In this document: positions 8,180 to 11,713 of the stretch, piece after piece
How the letters are laid out: each line of letters opens with the position of its first letter
How positions within the stretch are numbered: position 1 is the first letter of the stretch
Notes under the pieces: generated by a model
What the model was told of the DNA's origin: nothing
The model's database searches: none
Seen by the model: only the letters and a program-made list of their open reading frames with translations
Position numbers and translations under genes: made by a program
Assembly: GCF_011064825.1 (NCBI RefSeq)
Contig: NZ_CP048751.1
Coordinates: 558,001 to 622,000, forward strand
Direction of reading: 5' to 3'
DNA: 64,000 nucleotides
From: Brevundimonas mediterranea
Lineage (GTDB): Bacteria; Pseudomonadota; Alphaproteobacteria; Caulobacterales; Caulobacteraceae

Positions 8180-8494
8180 TCAGGGTCGCTCTTTCGCCGC
8201 CTCCGAGATCCGGGCGTCCTGCATGGCCCGCTCCGCCAGCAGGGTCTCGACCGCCAACCGCCTCGCCCCGTCGCAGGCCAGGATCTGGGCGCCGCGCTGC
8301 ACATAGGCGGCGTCCAGGTCCGCGGCTGTGGGTTCAGCCGGCAAAACCGCCAGGGCGCACGGCCGCCTCGCCGCCTCCGGCAGGCTGAGCCGCACCGGCG
8401 CAACCGTCGAGGTCAGTAGCGAGCGCGCACAGCTCGCGGTCATGAGCGCGCAGACGGTCGGCGCGGCGGCTTTCCAGAGGGATTTCGGCGTCAT
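8180..8494 (-). CDS. o-spanin-like (Rz1-like) small lipoprotein, overlapping the i-spanin gene
   Basis: A 104-residue frame starting MTPKSLWKAAAPTVCALMTA with a hydrophobic segment ending in TASC, a degenerate lipobox with the lipidated Cys near residue 22. It overlaps the 3' third of the i-spanin-like gene (8334-8813) in another frame, the classic Rz/Rz1 arrangement. The remainder is Ala/Leu-rich with a second short Cys motif and no recognised enzyme domain. O-spanins sit in the outer membrane and act with i-spanin in the last step of lysis. The family is inferred from position, length and lipobox; sequence similarity cannot be tested here. Confidence 0.6.
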   Translation of the reverse strand: MTPKSLWKAAAPTVCALMTASCARSLLTSTVAPVRLSLPEAARRPCALAVLPAEPTAADLDAAYVQRGAQILACDGARRLAVETLLAERAMQDARISEAAKERP

Positions 8495-8813
8495 CGGCGT
8501 TCCTGGCCTGTGCGACGGCGGTCGCGGTCGCGCGCGCCGCCGCCGTCTGCTGTTGTTGAAAATCATCGAGACGACGCAACTGTTCGTCCGCCCCCTCGCT
8601 CTCAAGACGACGCGCCGCCGTCTGGGCCCGGGCGTCACGTTCGCCGGACGCGGCCCGCGCCTCGGCCGCCGCCAACCGGCGCTGCTGCAGGCCCAGCGGG
8701 TCCCAGCGGAAACCGAGACCGCCCAGAAGCGCCGCCGCCAACCCCGCCACGACACCCGCGACGGCGAGCCAGCCGAGCGGCGTCAGCGCCTTCAGGATGG
8801 ACACGGCCCTCAT
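8334..8813 (-). CDS. i-spanin-like (Rz-like) membrane-anchored coiled-coil protein
   Basis: A 159-residue protein: one N-terminal transmembrane segment (about residues 10-32, GWLAVAGVVAGLAAALLGGL) followed by a long helical, coiled-coil-prone stretch rich in Ala, Arg, Gln and Glu (about residues 45-115). This is the usual form of phage i-spanins, which span the periplasm. The ATG at 8813 overlaps the stop of the M15 peptidase (ATGA), so translation is probably coupled. The C-terminus is encoded in overlap with the o-spanin frame. The assignment rests on topology and context rather than on a sequence signature. Confidence 0.65.
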   Translation of the reverse strand: MRAVSILKALTPLGWLAVAGVVAGLAAALLGGLGFRWDPLGLQQRRLAAAEARAASGERDARAQTAARRLESEGADEQLRRLDDFQQQQTAAARATATAVAQARNADDAEIPLESRRADRLRAHDRELCALATDLDGCAGAAQPAGGGEAAVRPGGFAG

Positions 8814-9193
8814 GGGAAGATCCTTCGATCCAGTTCGAAATGCGGGCCGTCGCGCAGGCTCTTCCAGTCGCCGCCCCAGACGATGGGGGTCTTCAACTCC
8901 AAAGCCGCCGCCTTGAAGGCCGAGGCGATGCGTCCATACAGCGGCCAGTCCCAACGGACCTGCCCTTCGACCAGGGCCGCCACATCGACGGCGTGGCCGC
9001 TCAGATGGCGAGACCTCAAGGTCCGGCTGGCTCCGGCCTGGACCAGAGCCGCCTGCCGTTCAGGCGATCGCAGCCCCTCCGTGATCATGAAATCAACAGG
9101 GCTGCGTGCGACCGCCGCCTCGACCACAGCCACCAGGGCTGGATGCACCCCCTTCAATCGCGCCCTTGAGCGAACGGACAACAGGCCGCTCAT
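8810..9193 (-). CDS. M15-family peptidase, endolysin-like
   Basis: A 127-residue single-domain D-Ala-D-Ala carboxypeptidase/L-Ala-D-Glu endopeptidase of the VanY/M15 type. Zinc-ligand and catalytic motifs are present: S-R-H-L-S-G-H-A-V-D-V (about residues 61-71) and W-G-G-D-W-x6-D-x-P-H-F-E-L-D near the C-terminus. There is no signal peptide, so it would need a holin to reach the peptidoglycan. It overlaps the holin-like gene upstream and the spanin gene downstream by 4 nt each. Phage and GTA lysis endolysins of this family are common in alphaproteobacteria. Confidence 0.85.
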   Translation of the reverse strand: MSGLLSVRSRARLKGVHPALVAVVEAAVARSPVDFMITEGLRSPERQAALVQAGASRTLRSRHLSGHAVDVAALVEGQVRWDWPLYGRIASAFKAAALELKTPIVWGGDWKSLRDGPHFELDRRIFP

Positions 9194-9477
9194 GGCCGGC
9201 CTCCCGTCAACCGCACCCGCGCATTGGCGATGAGCGCCACCAATTGCTCGGCCGTGGGCGCAACCAGATACAGAACCAGGATCAGGGCCAGCAGCCCCAT
9301 CAGCCCATCGGTCATCTTGGGCAGCATCTCGGCCGGCATCCGCGCCACCGTCCGCATCAACAGCAGCCACAGGCCGACGCTGACGGCGAAGGCGTACAGC
9401 CTGCGCCACAGCCAGCGTCCCTCGGCCAGGGTTCCGTTCTGGGGCCGGATCGGATCCGGCGTCGTCGATCTCGTCAT
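9190..9477 (-). CDS. holin-like small membrane protein
   Basis: A 95-residue protein with two hydrophobic segments (about residues 24-43 and 54-74) separated by a short charged turn, and a C-terminal amphipathic tail. The start at 9477 has a strong AAGGAGGACGAGGA ribosome site; a longer frame starting at 9513 lacks one. It is coupled by ATGA overlap to the small gene upstream and the M15 endolysin downstream. Two-transmembrane proteins directly before an endolysin are usually holins that release it to the periplasm. No specific holin family is recognised. Confidence 0.6.
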   Translation of the reverse strand: MTRSTTPDPIRPQNGTLAEGRWLWRRLYAFAVSVGLWLLLMRTVARMPAEMLPKMTDGLMGLLALILVLYLVAPTAEQLVALIANARVRLTGGRP

Positions 9478-9629
9478 TCCTCGTCCTCCTTGTCGAAGAT
9501 TTCGGTCGCGCACCGGCCGTCGAAGCCGGTCTGGGCGCGCCAGGCCCTGTCATTCAATCTGTCGGGGGCGTCCCAGACTTCGGGCTCCAGCACCTCCACA
9601 GGCTCGGGTCGGTTCAGCCGCCGGCTCAT
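9474..9629 (-). CDS. 51-residue hypothetical protein of the lysis/adhesin cassette
   Basis: A short frame, MSRRLNRPEPVEVLEPEVWD and onward, ending in an acidic K-E-D-E-E tail. It is linked by ATGA overlaps on both sides, to the DUF2793 gene upstream and the holin-like gene downstream, which makes it credible despite its size. It is acidic, has no membrane segment and no recognised domain. Its position between a fibre-like protein and a holin suggests a small virion or chaperone component, which is inference only. Confidence 0.6.
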   Translation of the reverse strand: MSRRLNRPEPVEVLEPEVWDAPDRLNDRAWRAQTGFDGRCATEIFDKEDEE

Positions 9630-11107
9630 CCGACGGCCGTGAGTCGAACCACGCCTCCCCCGCCTGCGCCGCCCGCGCCCGACAGGGTCAGGCCCGCCCC
9701 CCCGCCGCCGCCGCCCGCACCGAACAGGGCGCCCGCGCCACCCGCTGTTCCCGCACCGACGGCGGAAGCGCCGCCCCCGCCGCCCCCGCCGCCGACCCAG
9801 GCCAGGTTTGGCGCCGACGACGCCTGCCCCGCCGCACCGGCCGCGCCGCCCGGCGCCTGACGGACCGCCCAGCCGCCTGCGCCGCCCGGGCCGCCAGACC
9901 GCGCTGTATTGGCTGTGCTCAACCCGCCGCCGCCGCCTCCCCCGCCAGGACCGTCGGGACAGGCGGTCTCGCCGCCGACGAAGGCCGTCGCCGTGATCGA
10001 ACCGCCGCCACCGGCGTTTCCCGCCCGCAGGCCCTGACCGCCGGCGCCCCCCGCGCCTGCCGAAGCCGTTGCGCCGAGGCCGCCCGCCCCGCCTCCGGCC
10101 CGCAGCAACAGGGTTCCGCCCAGGCTCACCGCGCTCTGACCTCCCGCCCCGCCCAAGGCGCCCGCGCCTGAGCCGGCCGTCCCCGCCGCACCGCCCGCTC
10201 CGACCCCGACAACCAGGGTTTCGTTCAAGTCGGCGGCCGCCCAACAGGCCTCGCTCAGTCCGCCCGCGCCGCCGCCGCCGCCGCCGAAGCGCGCGGTTCC
10301 CGACGACCCCGCCATGCCCGATCCGCCGCCGCCGCCCCCGCCGACGCAGACCGCCTCGATCCACCGCGCCCAGGACGGCGGCTCATAGGCGCCGTCGGTG
10401 GTGAAGACCGTCGTCTCCCGTCGCGTCGCGCCCTTGTCGAATGCGATCCGCCCTGTTGCGCGATCCACCCCGAAGGCCCGGAGCCAGGTCGATCCGTCGG
10501 GACTCACCTTCAGGCTCAGGTTCTCGTCGCCTGCCAGGCCCAGTTCCGCCCGGCCGCCGTAGCCGCTCTGGAACAGCAGCGACAGGACATCCCCCGCCGC
10601 CTCCTTGTTCAGGGTCAGACGCAGGTCTCCGTCGCCGCCCTCGGCCACGCCGCGGGCGGTGAACAGGGCGGTGTTGGTCTTGACCGCCAGCGGATTGGCG
10701 GCGTCCGCCGTCGTGCCGAGGCCCAACCGCGAAAGCCCCTGCACTTCGCCCAGCCACTGTCCCAACGGGCTCCAGCCCTCTTCACTCCGCACCACCAGGA
10801 CGGCCGTATCCAGCACCAGGGCGATCATCCCCACCGGCGCGGCCACGACGCTCCAGCCGCCGCTCTCGAACCGCATCAGGGCGCCGGCGGGCCGGCCGCT
10901 CCACGCCGTCCCTGCGGCGCCGTGCGGCAGGATGTAGAGATCGCCGTCGAAGGGGGCGTCCGGCTGGGTCGTCAGGGTCCGGCTGACCACCGCCGTCTGC
11001 AACAGGGCGTCCAGCCGCGTCAGGGCCGCGTTCAGGGTCACATGCTTCTGCATCTGACCGGCTGCGAGATAAGGCAGGGCTAGCCGCGCGGTGAAATCGT
11101 CGCTCAT
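9626..11107 (-). CDS. DUF2793 and glycine-rich fibre/spike-like protein
   Basis: A 493-residue protein. Residues about 1-100 match DUF2793 (L-P-Y-L-A-A-G-Q-M-Q-K-H-V-T-L-N), a domain of phage tail/spike-like proteins also seen in Rhodobacter-type gene transfer agents. Residues 100-245 are beta-rich. From about residue 245 a glycine-rich domain begins with W-I-E-A-V-C-V-G-G-G-G and continues as Gly/Ala repeats to the end, like the glycine-rich tip domains of phage adhesins. It is the first gene of a five-gene coupled cassette. The ribosome site GGAGAT lies inside an 8-bp hairpin. Probably a receptor-binding or decoration protein rather than an enzyme. Confidence 0.8.
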   Translation of the reverse strand: MSDDFTARLALPYLAAGQMQKHVTLNAALTRLDALLQTAVVSRTLTTQPDAPFDGDLYILPHGAAGTAWSGRPAGALMRFESGGWSVVAAPVGMIALVLDTAVLVVRSEEGWSPLGQWLGEVQGLSRLGLGTTADAANPLAVKTNTALFTARGVAEGGDGDLRLTLNKEAAGDVLSLLFQSGYGGRAELGLAGDENLSLKVSPDGSTWLRAFGVDRATGRIAFDKGATRRETTVFTTDGAYEPPSWARWIEAVCVGGGGGGGSGMAGSSGTARFGGGGGGAGGLSEACWAAADLNETLVVGVGAGGAAGTAGSGAGALGGAGGQSAVSLGGTLLLRAGGGAGGLGATASAGAGGAGGQGLRAGNAGGGGSITATAFVGGETACPDGPGGGGGGGGLSTANTARSGGPGGAGGWAVRQAPGGAAGAAGQASSAPNLAWVGGGGGGGGASAVGAGTAGGAGALFGAGGGGGGAGLTLSGAGGAGGGGVVRLTAVG

Positions 11108-11110
11108 CAG

Positions 11111-11133
11111 GATCTCCGTTGTTGTCGGAGATC
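11111..11133 (-). promoter_or_regulatory. Hairpin sequestering the ribosome site of the lysis/adhesin cassette
   Basis: Perfect 8-bp stem GATCTCCG / CGGAGATC with a 7-nt loop, ending 3 nt before the ATG at 11107. The GGAG Shine-Dalgarno lies in the 3' arm. It could act as a translational switch or as a protein-binding palindrome. Confidence 0.55.
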
Positions 11134-11251
11134 AGTCTGCAGGCGCCGCCAGATCAGGCGTGTTGAACGGCGAATTTGTCATTCAACCCACGGTATGAGT
11201 TGAAGAAAATCGCCGAAATTAGGTGATCAGGGCGCGGCTTGCGCCCGTAAT

Positions 11252-11713
11252 TCAGTCGTGCAGATAGACGATGCGGCGCAGCTTCTTGTCGTTTCGAACC
11301 GTCTCCAGGTGGCGCTCGTGGTCGCCGCTGGCCCGGGCGTTGGCTTCGGAATCCTCGACCCAGTGGCTGGTCTCGATATCCTTCTGCAGCGCCTTGGCCG
11401 CCAACAACTGACCGGGGAAGAAGGTGTCGACCACGTCGCCGGCGATCGGCACCGTGCCCGTCGCCGTATCCACCGCCATATAGGCCGCCATCCGCGCCAG
11501 GGTCGCCGGCGACGCCTTGGCCCGCACCGCCTGCATCACCAGCCAGGCCCCGGTTCCGACCGTATAGACCGTACCCACCACCGGGACCCAGGTCAGCAGT
11601 CCGTCCATGCCGATGCCGAACGGTCCTATGCCGATCACCCGGTCGGACAGCTTCTTGATCCCCTCGACATTGGACCAGATCTTCTCGATATCCGTGATGG
11701 ACCGTCTGGCCAT
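11252..11713 (-). CDS. DUF4112 domain-containing membrane protein
   Basis: A 153-residue protein matching the DUF4112 pattern: an N-terminal amphipathic helix, F-G-I-G-M-D-G-L-L-T-W-V-P-V-V-G (about residues 32-47), a hydrophobic helix, then A-G-D-V-V-D-T-F-F near residue 105. The frame is open far upstream, but ATG 11713 has a GGAGAGG ribosome site and begins at the conserved region. Function is unknown; the family is predicted to be inner membrane. It is divergent from the EEP hydrolase at 11783. A GGGCGC...GCGCCC stem-loop follows the stop codon. Confidence 0.85.
   Translation of the reverse strand: MARRSITDIEKIWSNVEGIKKLSDRVIGIGPFGIGMDGLLTWVPVVGTVYTVGTGAWLVMQAVRAKASPATLARMAAYMAVDTATGTVPIAGDVVDTFFPGQLLAAKALQKDIETSHWVEDSEANARASGDHERHLETVRNDKKLRRIVYLHD

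Follow-up and report, generated by a model that had tools for sequence, protein, structure and literature searches.

A window of 64,000 nucleotides from the Brevundimonas mediterranea genome (GCF_011064825.1, contig NZ_CP048751.1, positions 558,001-622,000; the genome, termed G000, is a single contig of 3.38 Mb, with the window at G000:C1:558001-622000) contains a compact cassette of six overlapping genes on its minus strand (window positions 8180-11107). These encode a DUF2793 protein, a 51-residue protein, a holin-like protein, an M15 endolysin, an i-spanin and an o-spanin, and lie about 240 kb from the structural cluster of a gene transfer agent (GTA). An earlier sequence-only reading had described five genes joined by ATGA overlaps, with an o-spanin gene embedded among them, as a possible GTA accessory locus. 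All six genes were recovered in place, and four ATGA overlaps read from the sequence form the junctions from DUF2793 through the i-spanin. The o-spanin gene is likewise real, but it is not embedded: out of frame with the i-spanin gene (8334-8813), it (8180-8494) overlaps only the 3′ third of that gene and extends past its end. The same gene order recurs across Brevundimonas, and the five cassette genes measured have median pairwise ratios of nonsynonymous to synonymous substitution rates (dN/dS) of 0.22-0.46; the cassette is therefore not a chance arrangement.

The DUF2793 protein

The first gene (9626-11107, minus strand) encodes a 493-residue protein with a glycine-rich C-terminal half. It matches PF10983 (E = 1.5e-20), and sequence comparison aligns its N-terminus with chain S of the phage R4C baseplate (8gtc; E = 4.7e-11). 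Structure prediction from a 24-row alignment (mean predicted local distance difference test score (pLDDT) 75.7; predicted template modeling score 0.57) returned the Bxb1 tail tip (E = 4.8e-9) and the Pam3 fiber (E = 6.7e-4) as the best structural matches, followed by the R4C baseplate (E = 0.004-0.013). Residues 1-40 of the model have pLDDT < 50 and N-terminal fold matches mean little; the confident part is the glycine-rich C-terminal half (9629-10420, minus strand), which resembles the Bxb1 tail tip in fold and also matches PHROG 863 (‘tail fiber assembly’, E = 3.8e-10). Viral matches of the protein, judged by the best 50 of 616, are mostly glycine-rich proteins. The C-terminal half may form a polyglycine adhesin tip. 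The Caulobacter DUF2793 proteins examined are shorter than the Brevundimonas one.

Related GTAs provide a context for this protein. For Rhodobacter capsulatus, the DUF2793 fiber family was reported to co-evolve with GTA genes (PMC10883770) and the fiber to be present in the particle (PMC7296036). For Caulobacter crescentus, ccna_02456, a homologue of the R. capsulatus GTA fiber gene, was described as strongly induced by GafYZ, with GafY bound upstream of nine of the ten most induced loci (PMC9632790); on the strength of the shared family, the Brevundimonas gene would be its orthologue. We then turn to a family sample of 149 Caulobacteraceae genomes, including 24 Brevundimonas, in which GTA_TIM was found in 68 and DUF2793 in 75 (one below cut-off). 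DUF2793 was present in all 68 GTA_TIM-positive genomes versus 7 of the 81 GTA_TIM-negative ones. This co-occurrence, together with the predicted phage-tail-like fold, marks DUF2793 as a putative GTA structural gene outside the main cluster, encoding a probable tail fiber or adhesin.

Lysis genes

The fourth gene (8810-9193, minus strand) encodes a 127-residue M15 peptidase that matches PHROG 465 (E = 4.4e-56) and PF13539 (E = 9.3e-12) and contains SRHLSGHAVD and DGPH, which we take to be zinc-site motifs. On sequence grounds, the membership of this predicted muralytic enzyme in a phage endolysin family is secure. Its closest solved relative is ChiX (5opz, E = 4.2e-38) from the Serratia chitinase lysis cassette, which brings in type 10 secretion systems (T10SSs), described as non-phage holin/endolysin/spanin sets that release transcriptionally coupled cargo (PMC10847048). 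The locus could accordingly be a domesticated, GTA-independent lysis cassette that releases the co-transcribed glycine-rich DUF2793 adhesin through lysis of a few cells, and the persistence of the cassette in GTA-less genomes (see below) would suit such a role. Phages, however, commonly encode M15 enzymes of this type as well, with 1,076 matching phage records; the DUF2793 N-terminus matches a baseplate protein of a GTA-like phage, the DUF2793 gene tracks the GTA across the family, and the cassette promoter is of GTA type. We consider this secretion role unlikely.

Upstream of the endolysin lies the gene for a 95-residue holin-like protein in which hydropathy analysis shows two hydrophobic stretches (9190-9477, minus strand). 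Downstream, on the same strand, are the genes for a 159-residue i-spanin-like protein with an N-terminal hydrophobic stretch, likewise seen by hydropathy (8334-8813), and for a 104-residue small o-spanin-like lipoprotein with a weak lipobox-like motif, LMTASC (8180-8494). At final coordinates, the holin-like protein had no Pfam or PHROG family match, and the two spanins had no Pfam match and matched ‘Rz-like spanin’ PHROGs weakly (E = 0.059 and 0.031 for i-spanin and o-spanin, respectively). Among 53 viral contigs searched, two (L363 and L364) encode homologues of the holin, endolysin, i-spanin and o-spanin, arranged as in the cassette. With its pair of hydrophobic stretches, and with viral homologues that likewise sit beside an endolysin, the first of these proteins is a putative holin, while hydropathy, viral homologues, the lipobox-like motif and the weak PHROG matches point to a candidate pair of i-spanin and lipoprotein o-spanin; the lysis set thus appears complete, as first proposed. 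The holin has 344 homologues, and among the 120 matches listed, all those with an organism name are from Brevundimonas. No holin relative was found by a word-based viral scan or by tblastn against phage records. Because the viral contigs retrieved via the endolysin carry holin homologues, these blanks reflect limits of sensitivity or of the collection. PADLOC returned a weak i-spanin match only (LeoBC, E = 0.005).

In an endolysin tree with few columns relative to its number of rows, the 36 cassette endolysins formed one clade (100/99) that also included three viral sequences. This topology fits phage capture, perhaps with some later exchange. A widespread remnant of an ordinary prophage would likewise account for genes of phage origin, for the four-gene order shared with two viral contigs and for viral endolysins inside the cassette clade, but it sits poorly with the similar neighbors in many species, the purifying selection and the GTA-type promoter. 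Furthermore, no phage structural or integrase gene was recognized among the neighboring open reading frames looked at, in agreement with the original observation that capsid and integrase genes are missing nearby. We therefore regard a prophage remnant as very improbable.

GTA genes of the host genome

The G000 genome encodes an RcGTA-type structural cluster (RcGTA, the GTA of R. capsulatus). Matches above Pfam cut-offs comprise terminase, portal, protease, capsid, connector, gp17, tail tube, tail chaperone, DUF2460, hub and GTA_TIM (811520-812395), whereas tape-measure and NlpC/P60 matches fall just below them. At 852963-854030, a DnaA_C-like gene (gafY-like, just below cut-off) is followed by a gene for a DUF6456 protein (gafZ-like), DUF6456 being, as we assume, a marker of GafZ. 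This pair, within locus L083 (G000:C1:850500-856500), is divergent from a response regulator gene that is presumably CtrA-like. The searches for a GTA cluster and for GafYZ that the sequence-only reading had suggested thus came out positive, with a GTA cluster and a GafYZ-like pair present in the same genome.

Several further observations concern these GTA genes. An alignment of 20 Brevundimonas gafY promoters contains a conserved TAGGA...TTCCTA palindrome, a possible repressor site. A simple gene finder placed opposite-orientation genes apparently inside one GTA cluster, between protease and capsid (L073:14300-15800). The GTA loci of G024, G161 and G165 (L153, L329 and L324) retain the promoter of the cluster followed by the first codons, but no GTA terminase was detected downstream; these GTAs may be defective. 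In G073, the capsid and TIM frames are split.

Cassette promoter

The promoter region of the cassette (11111-11252, minus strand) was examined with a profile trained on 41 cassette promoters, with G000 left out (cassette model). This model scored the G000 cassette promoter at 55 bits, and its only other significant match in ~100 kb of G000 DNA was the promoter of the GTA cluster (gtaT; 17.6 bits, E = 1.9e-4). Applied to 43 GTA loci (545,634 bases), it gave 22 hits at E < 0.01, of which 19 were at the gtaT promoter and three (G024, G161 and G165) before the same first-gene start; control DNA (849,367 bases, 149 sequences) gave none. Conversely, a profile trained on 31 gtaT promoters (reverse model), when searched against 39 cassette loci, produced seven hits at E < 0.1, each of them immediately in front of DUF2793. 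Blind local alignment of the cassette promoter with the whole GTA locus on both strands, leaving uncounted the 11 of 43 loci without a detected GTA terminase, found the top-scoring match to lie upstream of gtaT in 16 of 32 loci, with 1.3 expected (binomial 1.8e-14, ignoring shared ancestry). When the 150 bp before DUF2793 were aligned with the gtaT upstream region of the same genome, the score exceeded that of shuffled sequences (p < 0.05) for 6 of 14 genomes; the likeness is plainest in G139 and G135. Collectively, these comparisons indicate that the cassette promoter is related to the GTA cluster promoter.

The part shared by the two promoters includes a AAATTCAAGGGCTTGG-like stretch (consensus), which we read as an IHF-type element, given the reported need of C. 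crescentus PgtaT for IHF (PMC11150451). In all six Caulobacter cases the cassette model ranked the gtaT promoter first, though with weak scores (E = 0.0065-1.8); the matched region covers an AAATCA-N4-CTTG stretch, which appears to correspond to the mapped IHF element IBE1 (PMC11150451). Since, within the GTA loci, a model built from cassettes alone matches solely GTA cluster promoters, and nothing in control DNA, membership of the cassette in the GTA regulon is very likely, as is a role in lysing the cells that make the particles. Further members of this regulon could be sought with the same model from sequence alone.

Distribution, exchange and loss

In the family sample, the cassette-type endolysin was found in 22 of 24 Brevundimonas genomes and in none of the 46 GTA-positive genomes of other genera, which carry DUF2793 without this endolysin; G007, from another genus, has a 63% relative. 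The synteny across Caulobacterales that the sequence-only reading had looked to is thus confined to Brevundimonas, and the lysis genes appear to be a feature of that genus. A genus sample of 131 Brevundimonas genomes contained GTA_TIM matches in 109 (fragments included), capsid matches in 116 (some to other phages), the DUF2793 N-terminus in 123 and any endolysin match in 115, of which 110 were cassette-type (E < 1e-50). Among the 105 genomes with both DUF2793 and endolysin, the endolysin lies 1.28-1.62 kb downstream on the same strand in 78; the two are on different contigs in 26 and 84 kb apart in G240, a single contig. Five endolysin-bearing genomes had no DUF2793 match.

The lysis part of the cassette has been altered in some lineages. 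A GH19 enzyme occupies the endolysin slot in G182 (E = 1.3e-8); in G224, a different site carries DUF2793 and, after it, what may be a CHAP enzyme (E = 0.0073, which misses the cut-off) together with spanins; G193 retains spanins without endolysin, and the spanins of G186 are partly deleted. Losses of endolysin and spanins in some GTA-positive lineages would be expected if only the fiber gene were a GTA part and the lysis genes had been inserted downstream for another purpose or as decaying passengers. Yet the endolysin has the lowest median dN/dS (0.22) of the five genes measured, in 24 of 28 genomes its stop codon shares an ATGA or GTGA overlap with the start of the following gene, and in G182 a GH19 enzyme takes its place, which together make this reading quite improbable.

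Neighborhood and leader

Flanking genes were compared in the 31 loci with the closest endolysins (L209-L239). Both flagellin and DUF4112 genes were present in 20 and one of them in 11; several of these 11 are cut by contig ends, whereas some are full-length without DUF4112. The DUF4112 gene lies ~2 kb further off in some of the 31 loci. The site is thus often shared but not universal. Of these records, 25 are assigned to Brevundimonas, the rest bearing higher-rank names or, in one case, that of a Bordetella sp. metagenome-assembled genome; this last record (L233), with a Brevundimonas-type cassette, is probably a mis-binned contig.

The second gene (9474-9629, minus strand) encodes an acidic protein of 51 residues with an ATGA overlap at both ends and no family match in PHROG or Pfam searches. 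A hairpin is predicted in the DUF2793 leader (11111-11133, minus strand; -13.5 kcal/mol, z = -5.25), with a putative ribosome-binding site in its 3′ arm; covariation analysis gave it no support.

Discussion

We propose, with a probability of roughly 0.83, that the cassette is an accessory locus of the Brevundimonas GTA, in which a lysis module of phage origin and a tail-fiber gene form one operon under a GTA-like promoter. The accessory-locus interpretation first drawn from sequence is supported by the GTA cluster and GafYZ-like pair of the same genome and by the GTA-type promoter. Gene content, order, conservation, promoter homology and the phage-tail-like fold of the fiber are direct observations from this analysis. 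From them we infer a course of events that extends to GafY/IHF activation, fiber incorporation and every lysis step. GTA activators (GafY with IHF, as in Caulobacter) would start particle production in a few cells and switch on the fiber-lysis operon as well, so that the DUF2793 fiber would be added to particles. Later, the holin would open the inner membrane, the M15 endolysin would cut peptidoglycan cross-bridges, and the spanins would breach the outer membrane, upon which the cell would burst and release its particles.

A number of results weigh against this proposal, and the main difficulties are GTA-less genomes that keep the cassette and GTA-positive genomes that have lost parts of it. 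The sequence-only reading had held that cassettes in genomes without a GTA cluster would speak against a GTA locus, and this concern is partly justified: 7 of the 11 Brevundimonas genomes without GTA_TIM and capsid matches keep the cassette-type endolysin, compared with 103 of the 120 others. Within Brevundimonas, the link between endolysin and GTA is accordingly weak (Fisher p = 0.076 for TIM or capsid, 0.35 for TIM alone). The GTA-less genomes G143, G229, G232, G253 and G254 keep the promoter, pairs with a GTA-less member show no elevated dN/dS, and dN/dS does not separate GTA-positive from GTA-less genomes. Conversely, the GTA-positive G178 and G162 are without endolysin and spanins; G083, G092 and G204 have no recognizable lysis genes beside DUF2793, and 6 of the 36 endolysin-bearing cassettes examined (G131, G165, G229, G058, G073 and G117) yielded no spanins. 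As for the promoter, direct pairwise alignment in G000 was not significant (p = 0.64), and only the profile finds the likeness; 13 of the 32 terminase-bearing GTA loci gave no cassette-model hit at E < 0.01, and 32 of the 39 cassette loci gave no reverse-model hit. Comparison with gafY promoters by eye was unproductive, and neither promoter model matches them.

Three known systems invite comparison. RcGTA, with the fiber rcc00171, the lysozyme-like rcc00555 and the holin rcc00556, similarly has fiber and lysis genes outside the main GTA cluster, and with rcc00555 disrupted, gene transfer falls and particles stay trapped, according to work cited in PMC3423380. Its fiber and lysis genes, however, have distant locus tags, whereas in Brevundimonas the corresponding genes share a single operon, which includes an M15 endolysin and spanins. 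The GTA of C. crescentus comes from the same family, with a homologous cluster, GafYZ and a GafYZ-induced fiber gene outside the cluster. C. crescentus is nevertheless described as lacking holin-endolysin homologues and lysing through LypABC (PMC13236601, PMC9632790), in contrast to the phage-type lysis genes of Brevundimonas. According to PMC13236601, the lytic effectors of LypABC are unknown, and complete lypABC operons were detected in only 4 of the 11 Caulobacter species with a predicted GTA. When the best first-look candidates were scored, LypB relatives (E < 1e-100) were found in 6 of 149 Caulobacteraceae and in none of 24 Brevundimonas, G000 included. T10SSs such as ChiWXYZ and YenLC share a holin, ChiX-type endolysin, i-spanin and o-spanin, and lysis of a subpopulation is expected in both cases. 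Unlike them, the Brevundimonas cassette would have a virus-like particle as cargo and has a promoter of GTA type; promoter and fiber tie it to the GTA, though it may also release the fiber alone. Among the matches listed in open-licence literature, no paper on Brevundimonas or Caulobacterales GTA lysis was recognized.

On balance, we lean slightly toward a rewiring of GTA release between the sister genera. Brevundimonas would have taken up a complete phage lysis module into its GTA fiber operon, whose promoter is related to that of the GTA, with an endolysin exchangeable among M15, GH19 and perhaps CHAP enzymes while the operon logic is kept; in Caulobacter, some species have LypABC, and neither system was detected in others. 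If so, particle assembly and cell lysis would constitute one regulon with an interchangeable lytic part, and the locus would provide a simple, testable answer to how Brevundimonas GTA producers lyse.

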